DNA of 64,000 bases from a gamma proteobacterium SCGC AB-629-P17 (lineage in GTDB: Bacteria > Pseudomonadota > Gammaproteobacteria > PS1 > Pseudothioglobaceae), in assembly GCA_000372785.1 (NCBI GenBank), contig KB889791.1, forward strand, positions 1 through 64,000. Direction: 5' to 3'. Below are positions 23,853-33,114 of this stretch, in pieces (the stretch's first letter is position 1; each line of letters starts with the position of its first letter). Both the position numbers and the translations under genes were made by a program. Below the pieces are notes generated by a model. It saw nothing but the letters and a program-made list of their open reading frames with translations, was not told the origin of the DNA and searched no databases.

Positions 23853-26270
23853 TTAAACACGCAGCTTCTCATTATCCTTGTCATAAGATGCGCTCGTCGA
23901 GACATGGCACTTTCTAGTGCCTATTGAAGTATCAACAGTTAGGTTGGTTCCTTCCTTGCAATGCTCTGGCTTAATGTAGGCAAAGGCAATACTGTGGCCT
24001 ACCCGATAACCATAAGCACCACTAGTGATGATCCCACTCAGTTTGTCACCAAAAAAGACGGCCTCATTTCCAAAACATTCTGCAGGCAATTGGTCGTCAA
24101 ATACTAGGTATGCTAGCTTTGTATTAACACCATTAGTTTTTCGTTCACGTATATTATCCGAACCGATAAAGTCTCTACTAAGGTCAAGGAATCGATCCAT
24201 TCCAGCCTCTAGGGCAGAAATCTCTTCTGTAAACTCTGCTCCATAAGCACGATACATTTTTTCCAATCGCATACTATTAAAAGCCTGACCGCCAAAGTCC
24301 TGTAGTCCGTGTTGCTCACCCATTTCCATTAAGGATTCATAGATAGAGATGAGTTGCCAACTTGGCATATGTAGTTCCCACCCCAACTCACCCGCGTAGG
24401 ACACCCGCATCGCGAAAACAGAAGCCGAGTCAATTGTAATGTTTCTACAGCTCAGCCAAGAAAATCCGTTATTGCTGAGATCTTCTCGAGTGCATTGCTC
24501 TAGTATTTGACGGGCATTCGGTCCAGTTAAAAGCAAACCACCCCAGCTCTCCGTAATATCTTCGATTTCAACTTCATATCCATCAGAGTGCAACTCAAGC
24601 CACTGATAATCTTTTACTTGCGAGCCTATAGCGCCCATTAAAATGAAATGTTCTAGGTTAATACGACTGATGGTCTGTTCTGCCATAATGCCACCATTTG
24701 GAGCATGGAAAAGAGTCAAACCAATTCGCTCATCTTTCTCAGGCAGTTTATTGCAGGACAATTGATCTAAAAATGCAAAAGCATCTTTTCCAGTTACTCT
24801 AAATTTTGCAGTTCCGCTTATATCGGTAACGCCGCAATGGTTTTCGACAGCAGAACACTCCAGAGCAACGGCCTCGTGAGCCTCACTGTGAGCCCAGGTA
24901 TGACTTTCTTTTCTAATGCTTTCTGTTGTAAACCAGGCGGGTTTTTCAAATCCTGTATTGACGATATGAACTGCGCCCTTCTGTGCCAGCACTGTATGCA
25001 GCGCACTAACCCTAATTGGTCTGCCATGTGGCCTGTTTTCATTAGGTACAGCCATAGCATACATCCTTTCATATGATTCAATTGCGCGAGTAATACAGTA
25101 TTTCTTATCCGCCCAAAGATCAAATCGGCGAGAATCTAATGAAGACATATTGAGTTCAGTTTGTCCATACACCATCCATTGTGCTAGGTATTTACCAATA
25201 CCACCTTGGGCAATACCAATACTAGCACCACATAAATTCCAAAAGTTTCTTAACCCTTTGGCTGGTCCAACAAGCAGGTTGTCATCTGGTGTATGGGTAA
25301 TGAGTCCATTGATGATGCTGCTAATACCAACCTCCTTGAATAAAGGTACAATATCCATACAGCGCTCTAAAAAAGGCATAAGTCGCTCTAGGTCTCCTTC
25401 GAATAACTCTCTATCAAATGACCAATCTACTCCTTCTAATGCCCAGGGTTTAGACCCCCTTGTTTCATATGGACCAATCAAAATTCCGTTCCCCTCTTGA
25501 CGAATATATGAGGCCGCTATAGAGTCACGGGTGACAGGTAGTTCTTTTGTTAGTGCAGCAATATCTGGGTGATTATCAGTAATCAAGTATTGATGCTGGA
25601 GGTTGACTAGGGGTACATAAGAACCAACCATTTCGCCAACCTGCGGTGAAAAACAACCACCAGCATTAACAACATGCTGAGCGATAATATTTCCCAATTC
25701 AGTGACAACTTCATATTCACCACTAGATAGAATGTTGATATCAATAACTCGGTTAAAGTTACTTACCTGAGCTCCAGCTTTTTTACCCAGTTGCGCTAAT
25801 TGTGTAACTACAGTTGTTGGGTCAACGTGTCCGTCATTAGGGGTATATAAGATGTTACGTGCATTATCAAAGCTCATCACCGGGTTGATAGTTGAAGCTT
25901 CTTCCTTTGAGACAAAATACATTTCGCAGCCAATATGGTTTGCTCTACTTATGATGTTGCGAAACCACTGCTCCTCAACTTCGGTATGTCCCACCCTTAA
26001 AGAACCAGTTTTGTGAAATGATGAAGCAAGCCCAGTTTTTTCTGGAAGAATTTCATCGTAAAGTTTTATCGTATATTCATGAATATGGGAGAGTGTGTGG
26101 TTACCATTAAAATTTGGACATAGACCTGCTGCATGCCATGTAGAGCCACTCGTAAGCTCGCCCTTTTCAACTAACACAATATCAGTCAAACCCTCTTGCG
26201 TTAGATGGTACATAAGGTTTACACCTAGAGAGCCACCACCAATAATTACTACTTGAGCATGTGTTTTCAT
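23853..26270 (-). CDS. FAD-dependent dimethylglycine/sarcosine dehydrogenase family protein with GcvT domains
   Basis: An 805-residue flavoprotein with an N-terminal DAO oxidoreductase domain and dinucleotide loop VVIIGGGSLGVNLMYHL (residues 7-23). Next comes GSTWHAAGL, where His46 corresponds to the histidine that carries covalent FAD in mammalian dimethylglycine and sarcosine dehydrogenases. The C-terminal half (about 440-800) is GcvT-like and would pass the released one-carbon unit to tetrahydrofolate. Likely reaction: oxidative demethylation of dimethylglycine or sarcosine. It follows the MttB-family gene by 12 bases on the same strand, which supports methylated amine or betaine use. The precise substrate is not decided by sequence. 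Confidence 0.83.
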   Translation of the reverse strand: MKTHAQVVIIGGGSLGVNLMYHLTQEGLTDIVLVEKGELTSGSTWHAAGLCPNFNGNHTLSHIHEYTIKLYDEILPEKTGLASSFHKTGSLRVGHTEVEEQWFRNIISRANHIGCEMYFVSKEEASTINPVMSFDNARNILYTPNDGHVDPTTVVTQLAQLGKKAGAQVSNFNRVIDINILSSGEYEVVTELGNIIAQHVVNAGGCFSPQVGEMVGSYVPLVNLQHQYLITDNHPDIAALTKELPVTRDSIAASYIRQEGNGILIGPYETRGSKPWALEGVDWSFDRELFEGDLERLMPFLERCMDIVPLFKEVGISSIINGLITHTPDDNLLVGPAKGLRNFWNLCGASIGIAQGGIGKYLAQWMVYGQTELNMSSLDSRRFDLWADKKYCITRAIESYERMYAMAVPNENRPHGRPIRVSALHTVLAQKGAVHIVNTGFEKPAWFTTESIRKESHTWAHSEAHEAVALECSAVENHCGVTDISGTAKFRVTGKDAFAFLDQLSCNKLPEKDERIGLTLFHAPNGGIMAEQTISRINLEHFILMGAIGSQVKDYQWLELHSDGYEVEIEDITESWGGLLLTGPNARQILEQCTREDLSNNGFSWLSCRNITIDSASVFAMRVSYAGELGWELHMPSWQLISIYESLMEMGEQHGLQDFGGQAFNSMRLEKMYRAYGAEFTEEISALEAGMDRFLDLSRDFIGSDNIRERKTNGVNTKLAYLVFDDQLPAECFGNEAVFFGDKLSGIITSGAYGYRVGHSIAFAYIKPEHCKEGTNLTVDTSIGTRKCHVSTSASYDKDNEKLRV

Positions 26271-26282
26271 ATTAGATGTTTT

Positions 26283-27839
26283 TTATAGTGGTTTTCGTCC
26301 AATAGCTTTACGACTTAATTGAATCTTAAATTTTTCTCTCAACTCTTCGTCTGTAGTATCGCTAATATGGCTAGGGAAGTGAGTTGCAAGTATCTCTTTT
26401 TTTCTTGCGATTGCACCATCTAAGATAACCTGTTTACCTTTATCTTTCCAGTCATTTGGGCTGTCTCGGTCACTCAGTTCGGGGTAAATATATTCGCTCT
26501 GCATAACATTGATTGTTTGTTCAGAGCCCAGGTAGTGGCCACGATTGTTTAGGCAAACATCTTTGACAGCTTCGAAGCATAACGATTCTTTGCTGTCATC
26601 ACTGAAACCCTTTGTCATTCTCATAGAAGCCCCTAAAAAATCATTGTCTAATAATAAGCTTTCAGGGCAGGTGCCTAAAAGACTTGCATACATTCCTGCT
26701 GATTCATAAATAATATTAGCACCGGCTATAGCAGTTACAACATGCGTTGAAGCGCGCTCCGTTCCTGCCTGGTAGTCAGGAAACTTTGCATCTGTCATGC
26801 CTGCGGCAGTGCCTGTTGGCAAATCAAAATAAACTCCCATTTGGGCACAAGCAGCTGAGATTAAACCTTGTTCAGGCGACCCCCCACACATCGCTCCAGT
26901 GCGAAGATCTGAGACAAATGGCCAAGTCCCTAGAATTGCTGGTGCGCCAGGTTTAATCGCATTAACATAAACCAGTCCCCCCAGACATTCCGCCCAAGCT
27001 TGAGATACCACGCCTGGTAAAAGTGGCGGTGCAGTGGCACCAGCCTGAGCAGCAGAAAGAAGTAAAATAGGCATACCACCTTCAACACCGACACGTAGGC
27101 ATTCCAAAGACTCCTCCGCAAATTTCATTGGTGGTACAACAAAGCAGTTACTCATACTAACAAAAGGACGCTGTCGCCATTTATCCTCGCTGCCAGCAAT
27201 AATATGCAACATCTCAAGACCATCAGTGACATGGGGTGATTCAGTAAAACTCACTCCAATGTGTTTTTGCGTCCCCATCACTGCACAATAAACTGAGTTT
27301 TGATCCATAGACCGTGGATCTGCTATATCACGTAGCACGCAGGTTCTTTGAAACATATGGATATGTTCACATTTGTCAGTAATTCGAGCCATGTCATAAA
27401 GATCTTGAGTGAACGATTCTCTATATTCATTGTTCTCAGGATCGGCAATCATAACTGCAGCACCCGCAGTAGAGAAGTGCACTTTTGACCCACTCAAATC
27501 CAAATCATATTGAGGAGACTGGCCGTGCAGAGTCAAACTATGTTGCGCTAAGTCCATAGCTTTTTTAACCACTTCTTTTGGCATTCTAAGTCTACCATCA
27601 TCACCCATGATTGCACCAAACGCAACACAGGCTTCAATACAATGCGGAGTTGCGTCAGCAAAGCCAATTTCTTCAAGGATGCGGTAAACATTAACCTCAA
27701 TTGCCTGAACTTGCTTATCACTCAGTGGCTTATACCTGCCACCAATCTCACCAGGCTTAACAGGCTTCTCTTCTTCAGTTAAAGGAGTGTTTCTTAAGGC
27801 AATTCTTGCCTCTCTTCCACCTGATTTCCTTTTGGTCAT
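26283..27839 (-). CDS. MttB-family (trimethylamine/glycine betaine type) methyltransferase, non-pyrrolysine
   Basis: 518 residues of the trimethylamine methyltransferase superfamily. The N-terminus resembles other bacterial MttB homologues (GGREARIALRNTP and GRYKPLSDKQVQAIE). Core blocks include VHFSTAGAAVMIADPEN, FVSMSNCFVVPPMKF, GTWPFVSDLRTGAMCGGSPEQ and DAKFPDYQAGTERASTH. The frame is uninterrupted, so there is no in-frame amber (pyrrolysine) codon. Non-pyrrolysine members such as MtgB demethylate glycine betaine with a corrinoid protein. No corrinoid protein or corrinoid methyltransferase gene lies in the window. It lies 12 bases upstream of the dimethylglycine dehydrogenase-like gene, so betaine to dimethylglycine to sarcosine is a plausible path. 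Confidence 0.85.
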   Translation of the reverse strand: MTKRKSGGREARIALRNTPLTEEEKPVKPGEIGGRYKPLSDKQVQAIEVNVYRILEEIGFADATPHCIEACVAFGAIMGDDGRLRMPKEVVKKAMDLAQHSLTLHGQSPQYDLDLSGSKVHFSTAGAAVMIADPENNEYRESFTQDLYDMARITDKCEHIHMFQRTCVLRDIADPRSMDQNSVYCAVMGTQKHIGVSFTESPHVTDGLEMLHIIAGSEDKWRQRPFVSMSNCFVVPPMKFAEESLECLRVGVEGGMPILLLSAAQAGATAPPLLPGVVSQAWAECLGGLVYVNAIKPGAPAILGTWPFVSDLRTGAMCGGSPEQGLISAACAQMGVYFDLPTGTAAGMTDAKFPDYQAGTERASTHVVTAIAGANIIYESAGMYASLLGTCPESLLLDNDFLGASMRMTKGFSDDSKESLCFEAVKDVCLNNRGHYLGSEQTINVMQSEYIYPELSDRDSPNDWKDKGKQVILDGAIARKKEILATHFPSHISDTTDEELREKFKIQLSRKAIGRKPL

Positions 27840-27970
27840 CTGATTAATCCGAGTTGAGTTCTGTCTGAGGCATTTTGATACGAATCTTAATCGCTGTCAA
27901 TCATTTTGTTAACTTAATTATTGCATTATTCTATAACATATATTGTTGAAATATCTTAATCATAAGCAAA

Positions 27971-31614: not shown

Positions 31615-33114
31615 TTAGACGTCTTTACCGCTTTCAAAGTGGAACTGAGCGCCTTTTCGAATTCCAGAAGGCCATCTTGATGTAATTGTTTTTAGCTGAG
31701 TATAAAAACGCACACCCTCCATACCGTGAATTGAAGAACCGCCGAAAAGTGAACGCTTCCAACCGCCGAAACTGTGCATGGCGACCGGAACAGGAATAGG
31801 TATATTTACACCAACCATGCCCACCTTAACGTTTGAGGTAAAGTGACGAGCAGTGTCACCATCTCGTGTAAAGATGGCAGTGCCATTACCATACTCATGA
31901 TCATTAACAAGCGCCAATGCCTCATCGTAAGTAGACACCCTAACAATCGATAAAACTGGTCCAAAAATTTCATCGGTATAAATTGGCATATTCGGGGTCA
32001 CTTTATCAAACAAGCAACCACCAATATAGAAGCCATCCTTTTTAATCTCTGACCTTCCATCAACTTTGAGTTCAGCGCCCTCGTTAATACCTGATTCGAT
32101 GTAGGACAAAATCTTTTCTTGACTCTGCTTTGAAATAACAGGTCCCATTTCAACGTCGGGTTCATCATAAGCGCCAATTTTAAGAGATGTCACTTTTGGT
32201 TTAAGTGATTCAATCAACTTATCGGCTGTTTCATCACCAACAACGACCACCACAGAAATAGCCATACAGCGCTCACCAGCTGAGCCATAGGCTGCACCAA
32301 TAATAGCATCTGCGCTTTGCTCTAAATCCGCATCAGGCATCACAATCATATGATTCTTTGCACCACATAGAGCCTGAACACGCTTATTGTTACGAGAACC
32401 TTCTTGATAGATGTACTCGCCTACTGCAGTTGAACCTACGAAACTGATTGCACGAACTTGTGGGTTTATAAGTATTTCATCTACAGCTTCTTTGTCGCCC
32501 ACAATCGTATTCAGTACACCTTCAGGAAGACCCGCTTCATGAATTAGCTCAGTGAGTCTTAATCCGCATGAAGGGACTTTCTCAGATAATTTTAGAACGA
32601 AAGTATTGCCACATGAGATTGCAACAGGGTACATCCACATTGGTACCATCGCTGGAAAGTTAAAGGGAACAATACCAGCACAGACACCAATTGGTTGGCG
32701 CAAATTATGACTATCAATACCTGTTGAAACGTCTGCACTAAAGTCAGATTTGAGGTGATTATTAATAGCTGTACAATACTCAACGACTTCTAAACCTCTT
32801 CCAATCTCACCTTTCGCGTCATCAAATGTCTTTCCGTGTTCCTGTGAGATTAGCTCTGCTAATTCGTCGCTATGATTGATTATCAATTCACGATATGCGA
32901 ACATAATTTGTGCACGTTTCGATGGTGTAACTTGACTCCAGTTTTGAAGTGCATTACTTGCAACTTGGATTGCATCTGCTGTGTCTTTTGCGCTTGCGCC
33001 TTCTATCTGCCTAATAACTTCACCTTTGGCTGGGTTATAGACGTCAAAAATACGTCCACAGCTACCTGCAACCTTATTACCACCAATGATATGTTGTAAG
33101 CGATTAATAGACAT
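31615..33114 (-). CDS. mmsA: CoA-acylating methylmalonate-semialdehyde dehydrogenase
   Basis: ALDH-superfamily enzyme of 499 residues converting methylmalonate semialdehyde to propionyl-CoA, or malonate semialdehyde to acetyl-CoA. MmsA-type features are FVGSTAVGEYIYQEGSRNNK, VQALCGAKNHMIVMPDAD (where most ALDHs have a catalytic Glu block), the catalytic Cys in GSAGERCMAISVV, and GWKRSLFGGSSIHGMEGV near the end. It normally serves valine, thymine, beta-alanine or inositol breakdown; no such genes lie next to it, so its pathway here is open. It converges on putA. Confidence 0.92.
   Translation of the reverse strand: MSINRLQHIIGGNKVAGSCGRIFDVYNPAKGEVIRQIEGASAKDTADAIQVASNALQNWSQVTPSKRAQIMFAYRELIINHSDELAELISQEHGKTFDDAKGEIGRGLEVVEYCTAINNHLKSDFSADVSTGIDSHNLRQPIGVCAGIVPFNFPAMVPMWMYPVAISCGNTFVLKLSEKVPSCGLRLTELIHEAGLPEGVLNTIVGDKEAVDEILINPQVRAISFVGSTAVGEYIYQEGSRNNKRVQALCGAKNHMIVMPDADLEQSADAIIGAAYGSAGERCMAISVVVVVGDETADKLIESLKPKVTSLKIGAYDEPDVEMGPVISKQSQEKILSYIESGINEGAELKVDGRSEIKKDGFYIGGCLFDKVTPNMPIYTDEIFGPVLSIVRVSTYDEALALVNDHEYGNGTAIFTRDGDTARHFTSNVKVGMVGVNIPIPVPVAMHSFGGWKRSLFGGSSIHGMEGVRFYTQLKTITSRWPSGIRKGAQFHFESGKDV

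Follow-up and report, generated by a model that had tools for sequence, protein, structure and literature searches.

A non-pyrrolysine MttB-family gene paired with a dimethylglycine dehydrogenase-like flavoprotein gene in a SUP05-related bacterium, with a candidate corrinoid partner on another contig

The mttB–flavoprotein gene pair

We analysed a stretch of 64,000 nucleotides (the window) from contig KB889791.1 of the gamma proteobacterium SCGC AB-629-P17 (assembly GCA_000372785.1), a draft genome related to SUP05 (Candidatus Thioglobus/Pseudothioglobus) of 1.42 Mb in 70 contigs, 77% complete with 5.4% contamination (G000 hereafter). The minus strand of the window carries an mttB-family gene for a protein of 518 residues (26283..27839) and, downstream of it, a gene for an 805-residue dimethylglycine/sarcosine-dehydrogenase-like flavoprotein with a GcvT-type folate domain (23853..26270). 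Both open reading frames (ORFs) are intact. Exactly 12 bases (26271..26282, same strand) separate the mttB stop from the flavoprotein start, which suggests a single transcript, and the two genes are probably co-transcribed. ORF coordinates and Pfam domains thus bear out the pair that an earlier note on this DNA had described.

The pair was compared at 54 named loci around relatives of the window mttB (L0xx). The nearest are 83–92% identical, and several are labelled Candidatus Thioglobus, Pseudothioglobus or SUP05. A dimethylglycine-dehydrogenase-like (DMGDH-like) gene shares the locus with mttB in 50 of the 54 and lies directly downstream on the same strand in 38. Three of the four loci without it (L058, L059 and L088) reach their contig end inside mttB, while the fourth, L066, has complete flanks and a corrinoid gene in that place. 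The mttB–flavoprotein pair is conserved among relatives. A flavin adenine dinucleotide (FAD)-dependent oxidoreductase also stands near mttB in eight of nine annotated plasmid regions, the Leisingera region being the exception; a tenth region (H4) bears no annotation and is outside this count.

The 518-residue protein belongs to the MttB superfamily (PF06253, 346.8 bits, cut-off 25). Its gene contains no in-frame TAG, and codon 348, equivalent to the pyrrolysine codon, is ATG (Met348); the pyrrolysine MttB model TIGR02369 scored 310 bits, under its cut-off of 525. On these three grounds, an identity as pyrrolysine-dependent trimethylamine methyltransferase was rejected. A structure model with a predicted local distance difference test score (pLDDT) of 71, from an alignment that still included the MtgB-clade paralogue L087 18022-19806 (23% identity), matched six MttB-family entries, among them MttB, MtgB and 4YYC, with Z scores of 33–36, the next best being 20; the best matches include the structure of the MttB–MttC complex. 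Pyrrolysine MttB of Methanosarcina barkeri (7XCL/M/N, 30% identity) was the best match with a Z score of 35.6, tied within about 1.5 with MtgB of Desulfitobacterium hafniense (2QNE and 9YCE, Z 34.1 and 33.7, 28% identity), which shares with the window MttB the superfamily, the fold and the lack of pyrrolysine.

The domain order of the flavoprotein is DAO, FAO_M, GCV_T and GCV_T_C, an order that also occurs in sarcosine dehydrogenases and others. Its closest solved relatives are the mitochondrial dimethylglycine dehydrogenases (5L46 and 4P9S), which align over nearly the full length and share the GSTWHAAGL stretch, the best being the human enzyme (5L46, 568.6 bits, 37% identity). Both sequence marks of a dimethylglycine dehydrogenase were found, namely the four domains and the WHAAG histidine, which is presumably the FAD anchor. 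The family acts on N-methyl amino acids. A second, sarcosine-dehydrogenase-like (SDH-like) flavoprotein gene is also found in 17 of the 54 loci, and the DMGDH-like and SDH-like kinds part with a support of 100/100 in a 17-row tree. The gene order would fit a removal of methyl groups one at a time, the first being passed to a corrinoid protein and the others leaving by oxidation. It is plausible, as the earlier note proposed, that the flavoprotein handles the remaining methyl groups, and the gene pairing backs this view.

G000 has 10 DMGDH-like matches, some being pieces. One such stretch (C46, 7119-8387) holds two internal TAG codons and is a broken gene or a sequence error. In other genomes, a DMGDH-like gene adjoins a gene of the PF02574 (homocysteine-methyltransferase) type of about 303 residues (G003, C3, 54769-58106; similar places in G004, G008, G014 and G021), possibly another pairing of an enzyme removing the first methyl with a flavoprotein.

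A corrinoid gene cluster elsewhere in the genome

The earlier note had seen no corrinoid gene in the window, and whole-genome searches with PF02607 and PF00809 agree: no corrinoid-binding match lies within the 64 kb. PF02607 gave its sole match above cut-off on contig C57 of G000 and a sub-threshold spot at C35:70123; PF00809 matched on C57 and at C35:73006, the latter probably FolP by its score. Both C35 positions are beyond the window. The genome-wide search for MtgC or MttC that the note had suggested yielded an MtgC-type gene, and one of its two options, a partner encoded elsewhere, holds: C57 groups the genes for a corrinoid protein and a pterin methyltransferase with DUF1638 and a fragment of RamA. 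The idea that the genome has no corrinoid partner was rejected after these searches.

The order on C57 is class-I GATase, corrinoid protein, DUF1638, MTHFR C-terminal piece, MTHFR, pterin-binding protein, GFA protein and the start of a RamA-like activase. The corrinoid protein is a stand-alone protein of 234 residues with PF02607 and PF02310 and the stretch GDIHDIG; it fits the MtgC-type cap/core arrangement with D-x-H-x-x-G, which we take to be the motif of a B12-binding corrinoid protein. Against the NCBIfam model MtgC_2 it scored 195, below the cut-off of 370. The pterin-binding methyltransferase (PF00809) scored 359.5 bits with NF005719 (cut-off 259). C57 thus carries both genes looked for as marks of an MtgBCD system, one for a stand-alone corrinoid protein (PF02310/PF02607) and one for a pterin methyltransferase (PF00809). 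The activase is represented by its first 40 residues, which are 90% identical to the 645-residue protein of the near relative G008, where the same cluster extends into a whole RamA gene and an MtgB-clade gene; whole RamA genes occur in further genomes too. After these 40 residues, the frame passes abruptly into permease-like sequence (L008 16997-17389), a break that is a probable assembly join. Contamination as the origin of C57 was rejected, since G008 has its genes in the same order (from MFS and GATase through the corrinoid protein and DUF1638 onward), as has G006 except for an MTHFR piece, and the corrinoid protein shares 98–99% identity with its counterparts in G008 and G027.

A survey of 58 genomes (G0xx), including 28 other genus members and eight family members outside the genus, showed that the two genes occur together. 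A stand-alone corrinoid protein (85–99% identity) is encoded by 24 of the 28 genus members and by 20 of the 23 with an orthologue of the window mttB. Outside the genus, seven of the eight family members have neither MttB nor such a protein, and the eighth, G032, has both, as does G053 from the rest of the class. The activase family PF14574 was found in 25 of the 58 genomes, namely 22 genus members, G032, G050 and G053.

Physical linkage was seen as well. Window-type mttB genes (66–69% identity) stand beside or clustered with a corrinoid gene in six of the 54 loci: at most one small ORF intervenes in L066, L069, L082 and L089, a pterin gene in L078, and DUF1638 plus a pterin gene in L086. Four more loci (L079, L083, L085 and L087) have the corrinoid gene further off, giving 10 of 54. 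In Woeseia (L066 12446-14443), a 665-residue hydantoinase/ASKHA-like protein is encoded right behind mttB-mttC; it could be a substitute for the reactivase. Second corrinoid domains (38–39%) were noticed in G016 (C7, 35011-35640) and G018 (C25, 11387-12013), within frames of about 615 residues that hold one TGA.

According to the accessible text of PMC12478193, MtgBCD operates in aerobic marine bacteria, and SUP05 and Candidatus Thioglobus are named among the carriers. Mutants of Ruegeria pomeroyi described there show that MtgC and MtgD serve both glycine betaine use and methionine synthesis; its authors report MtgC expression at or above the level of the other marine glycine-betaine route and note up to seven PF06253/MttB-like genes per genome, the rest without assigned substrates. 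By that account the system studied here is of the MtgBCD type, with its components apart as in Eubacterium limosum. Like the MtgBCD(E) system of R. pomeroyi, it has genes of MtgC type, for an MtgD-type pterin protein, a MetF2-like reductase, DUF1638 and RamA (in G000 the first 40 residues), as well as several PF06253 genes per genome, and most genus members have no MetH-sized match. It differs in that the window MttB lies outside the MtgB clade, for which the D. hafniense enzyme is the reference, and has its own flavoprotein. In E. limosum, an anaerobe unlike the organism studied here, MtpB, MtcB and MtyB work with MtqC; going by the accessible descriptions in PMC8604678 and PMC12155760, these genes too lie apart from the corrinoid and tetrahydrofolate (THF) components, and several MttB-family enzymes use one corrinoid protein. 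PMC12478193 likewise offers a precedent for separate encoding with one common corrinoid protein. Because such systems are encoded in pieces, a corrinoid gene missing nearby says little.

PF02574, the family of MtgE, had no match in the 77%-complete G000 and a match in 26 of the 28 other genus members, MtgE and others pooled. MetE-type matches were weak fragments in four of five genus genomes, with none in G000, and no BCCT transporters were detected in the five genus genomes examined. The earlier note had also pointed to cobalamin genes. CobS was found in none of the 21 genus genomes examined (the control was found in 10 of 14). A cobalamin riboswitch precedes a TonB-dependent-receptor-like gene in G006 and G028, and also in G017, there with less than the gathering score (L170, L169 and L172). 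None was found in G000 or G008. Such a pattern would fit imported B12.

Branch position and modelled substrate pocket

The phylogeny that the earlier note had called for placed the window gene outside the MtgB clade. In a tree of 21 proteins, the MtgB clade (nine rows, support 100/100) comprises D. hafniense MtgB, Sinorhizobium meliloti 4YYC, the corrinoid-operon genes of G006, G008 and G053, the gene beside the corrinoid gene in L087 and three further paralogues of G006. The window gene falls into a separate clade (100/99) with relatives from Oceanospirillaceae, Woeseia, S. meliloti pSymB, Roseovarius, Ruegeria and Mesorhizobium. A relative on the megaplasmid of R. pomeroyi DSS-3 (SPO_RS21400) is 44% identical. 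G006, a complete genome, encodes a single corrinoid protein alongside five MttB matches.

Four contacts of MtgB to glycine betaine, Y94, N199, R309 and H345, have been proposed by docking in the accessible part of PMC6855144. In the alignment, the window MttB has G126, C232, G343 and E379 at these positions. G126, C232 and G343 are invariant in all 28 rows of the branch, and the fourth position is Glu in 26 rows and Gly in two; L087 18022-19806 was counted with the MtgB clade. All four contacts are kept in the five MtgB-clade rows compared (the query MtgB apart), including the corrinoid-operon gene of the relatives, and the three other G006 paralogues keep the N and R contacts and vary at the other two positions. 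The window branch has equivalents of Gly110 and Tyr364 of M. barkeri pyrrolysine MttB, although Met348 stands at the pyrrolysine position, and the Cys at the position of MtgB Asn199 is likewise common to both.

Lying outside the clade of D. hafniense MtgB and differing at the four modelled contacts, the window MttB does not match MtgB by either mark. Because the branch is outside this clade and the modelled glycine-betaine contacts are replaced, the substrate is probably not glycine betaine. The same data lend no support to the glycine betaine or trimethylamine substrate implied by the earlier note.

Proposed pathway and alternative substrates

We consider it likely that mttB encodes a non-pyrrolysine quaternary-amine methyltransferase of the MttB superfamily, whose methyl group goes to a separately encoded MtgC-type corrinoid protein. 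Most likely, a quaternary amine, which may not be glycine betaine, would lose one methyl to this enzyme and then a second to the flavoprotein. In this scheme, an N-trimethylated compound would give up its first methyl to MttB, for transfer to Co(I) of the corrinoid protein encoded on C57. From there MtgD would hand the methyl on to THF, and methyl-THF would be oxidised by the MetF2-like reductase; the cobalt would be recharged by RamA and DUF1638. The dimethylated product would be oxidised by the flavoprotein, whose GcvT half would capture the next methyl as methylene-THF.

Several observations weigh against this proposal. The structure model is of middling confidence, and the glycine-betaine contacts of PMC6855144 come, in the text available, from docking and not from a complex. 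The assembly of G000 itself has no MtgB-clade gene, and its RamA ends after 40 residues. Three genomes (G009, G020 and G022; 54–76% complete) have the mttB orthologue without a corrinoid protein being found, and in G050 a stand-alone corrinoid protein (38%) and an activase occur without a match to MttB.

Among the alternatives, the strongest is a second glycine betaine methyltransferase that would convert glycine betaine to dimethylglycine on MtgC, with the flavoprotein yielding sarcosine. This is possible but rather less likely than a different substrate. Human dimethylglycine dehydrogenase is the closest solved structure to the flavoprotein, the additional SDH-like flavoprotein in 17 of the 54 loci would fit three successive demethylations, and a Mesorhizobium relative (39%) adjoins genes annotated as a glycine betaine/proline ABC transporter. 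On the other hand, the branch position and the loss of all four modelled contacts, which the MtgB-type gene in the relatives' corrinoid operon keeps, argue against it, and the genus already has an MtgB-clade gene beside mtgC.

The pocket residues common to the branch and the trimethylamine enzyme (the Gly110 and Tyr364 equivalents and the Cys), as well as the Glu that replaces contact His345 in 26 of 28 rows, would suit a substrate without a carboxylate near the ammonium, such as an amine or a choline-like compound. We regard such a substrate as improbable, as the paired flavoprotein is of a family acting on N-methyl amino acids. Moreover, members without pyrrolysine were judged unlikely trimethylamine methyltransferases in the accessible part of PMC6855144.

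Still less probable is a β-amino betaine such as β-alanine betaine, for which three demethylations would give a β-amino acid, then transamination a semialdehyde and methylmalonate-semialdehyde dehydrogenase (MMSDH) an acyl-CoA. The window has an MMSDH gene (31615..33114, minus strand; TIGR01722, 652 bits, cut-off 448.5), and such genes, present in 14 of the 54 loci, are upstream of mttB in 11 loci of the genus type; in L079, L082 and L086 their neighbours are SDH-like and DMGDH-like genes. On two Ruegeria plasmids, a class III aminotransferase gene lies between those for MttB and two flavoproteins. However, in L040 the MMSDH gene ends a run of genes that read from their translations as inositol catabolism and may be IolA, the aminotransferase scored best, below cut-off, as glutamate-1-semialdehyde aminomutase, and other relatives are without both genes. 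A literature search on β-alanine betaine demethylation gave no paper on an MttB acting on this compound among the matches listed.

Finally, the second option of the earlier note, transfer to an acceptor other than a corrinoid protein on account of the 64-kb window without a corrinoid gene, found no support and is very unlikely, because the genome holds the corrinoid cluster and orthologous mttB genes stand beside or clustered with a corrinoid gene in six of 54 loci; the tight co-occurrence and the fold match to the MttB–MttC complex also speak against it.

Returning to transfer onto the MtgC-type protein, the window branch quite possibly represents one more class of non-pyrrolysine MttB with a specificity of its own, which is widespread among Gammaproteobacteria of the ocean and on plasmids of Alphaproteobacteria. 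It would combine part of the pyrrolysine-MttB pocket, the absence of glycine-betaine contacts, a shared MtgC hub and one or more flavoprotein demethylases of its own in the stepwise stripping of a quaternary amine other than glycine betaine. If so, an osmolyte would be the substrate, one for which no enzyme of corrinoid-dependent breakdown in oxic seawater has been assigned. A literature search, with most subscription papers outside its reach, found no paper describing this MttB branch; the branch and its substrate appear to be unassigned in the literature searched. The branch offers a concrete, conserved and testable case of one methyltransferase with a flavoprotein partner and a known corrinoid hub, and knowing its substrate would reveal what other methylated compounds are consumed by B12-dependent marine bacteria.

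Neighbouring genes and MttB paralogues

A divergent intergenic stretch of 131 bases (27840..27970) between mttB and putA is a candidate promoter site for the pair. Several relatives have the MMSDH gene immediately upstream of mttB and in the same orientation; in the window, putA intervenes. We are unsure whether MMSDH is linked to the pathway. A link to proline betaine through putA was set aside, as only some loci of the genus have putA next to mttB.

In G000, PF06253 matches only the window gene and the two halves of another gene on contig C5. About 5 kb of fatty-acid oxidation genes interrupt this second MttB gene (L004 9708-16335). The two mttB ends have a 70-base word in common, and a 95-base word is common to the start of fadA and the contig end; the split looks like an assembly join and not biology. 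In G006, other MttB paralogues (L138 and L139) adjoin a carnitine 3-dehydrogenase gene (NF005716, 707.8 bits, cut-off 592) and a gene resembling choline dehydrogenase (below cut-off), a hint that each MttB paralogue may have a different substrate.

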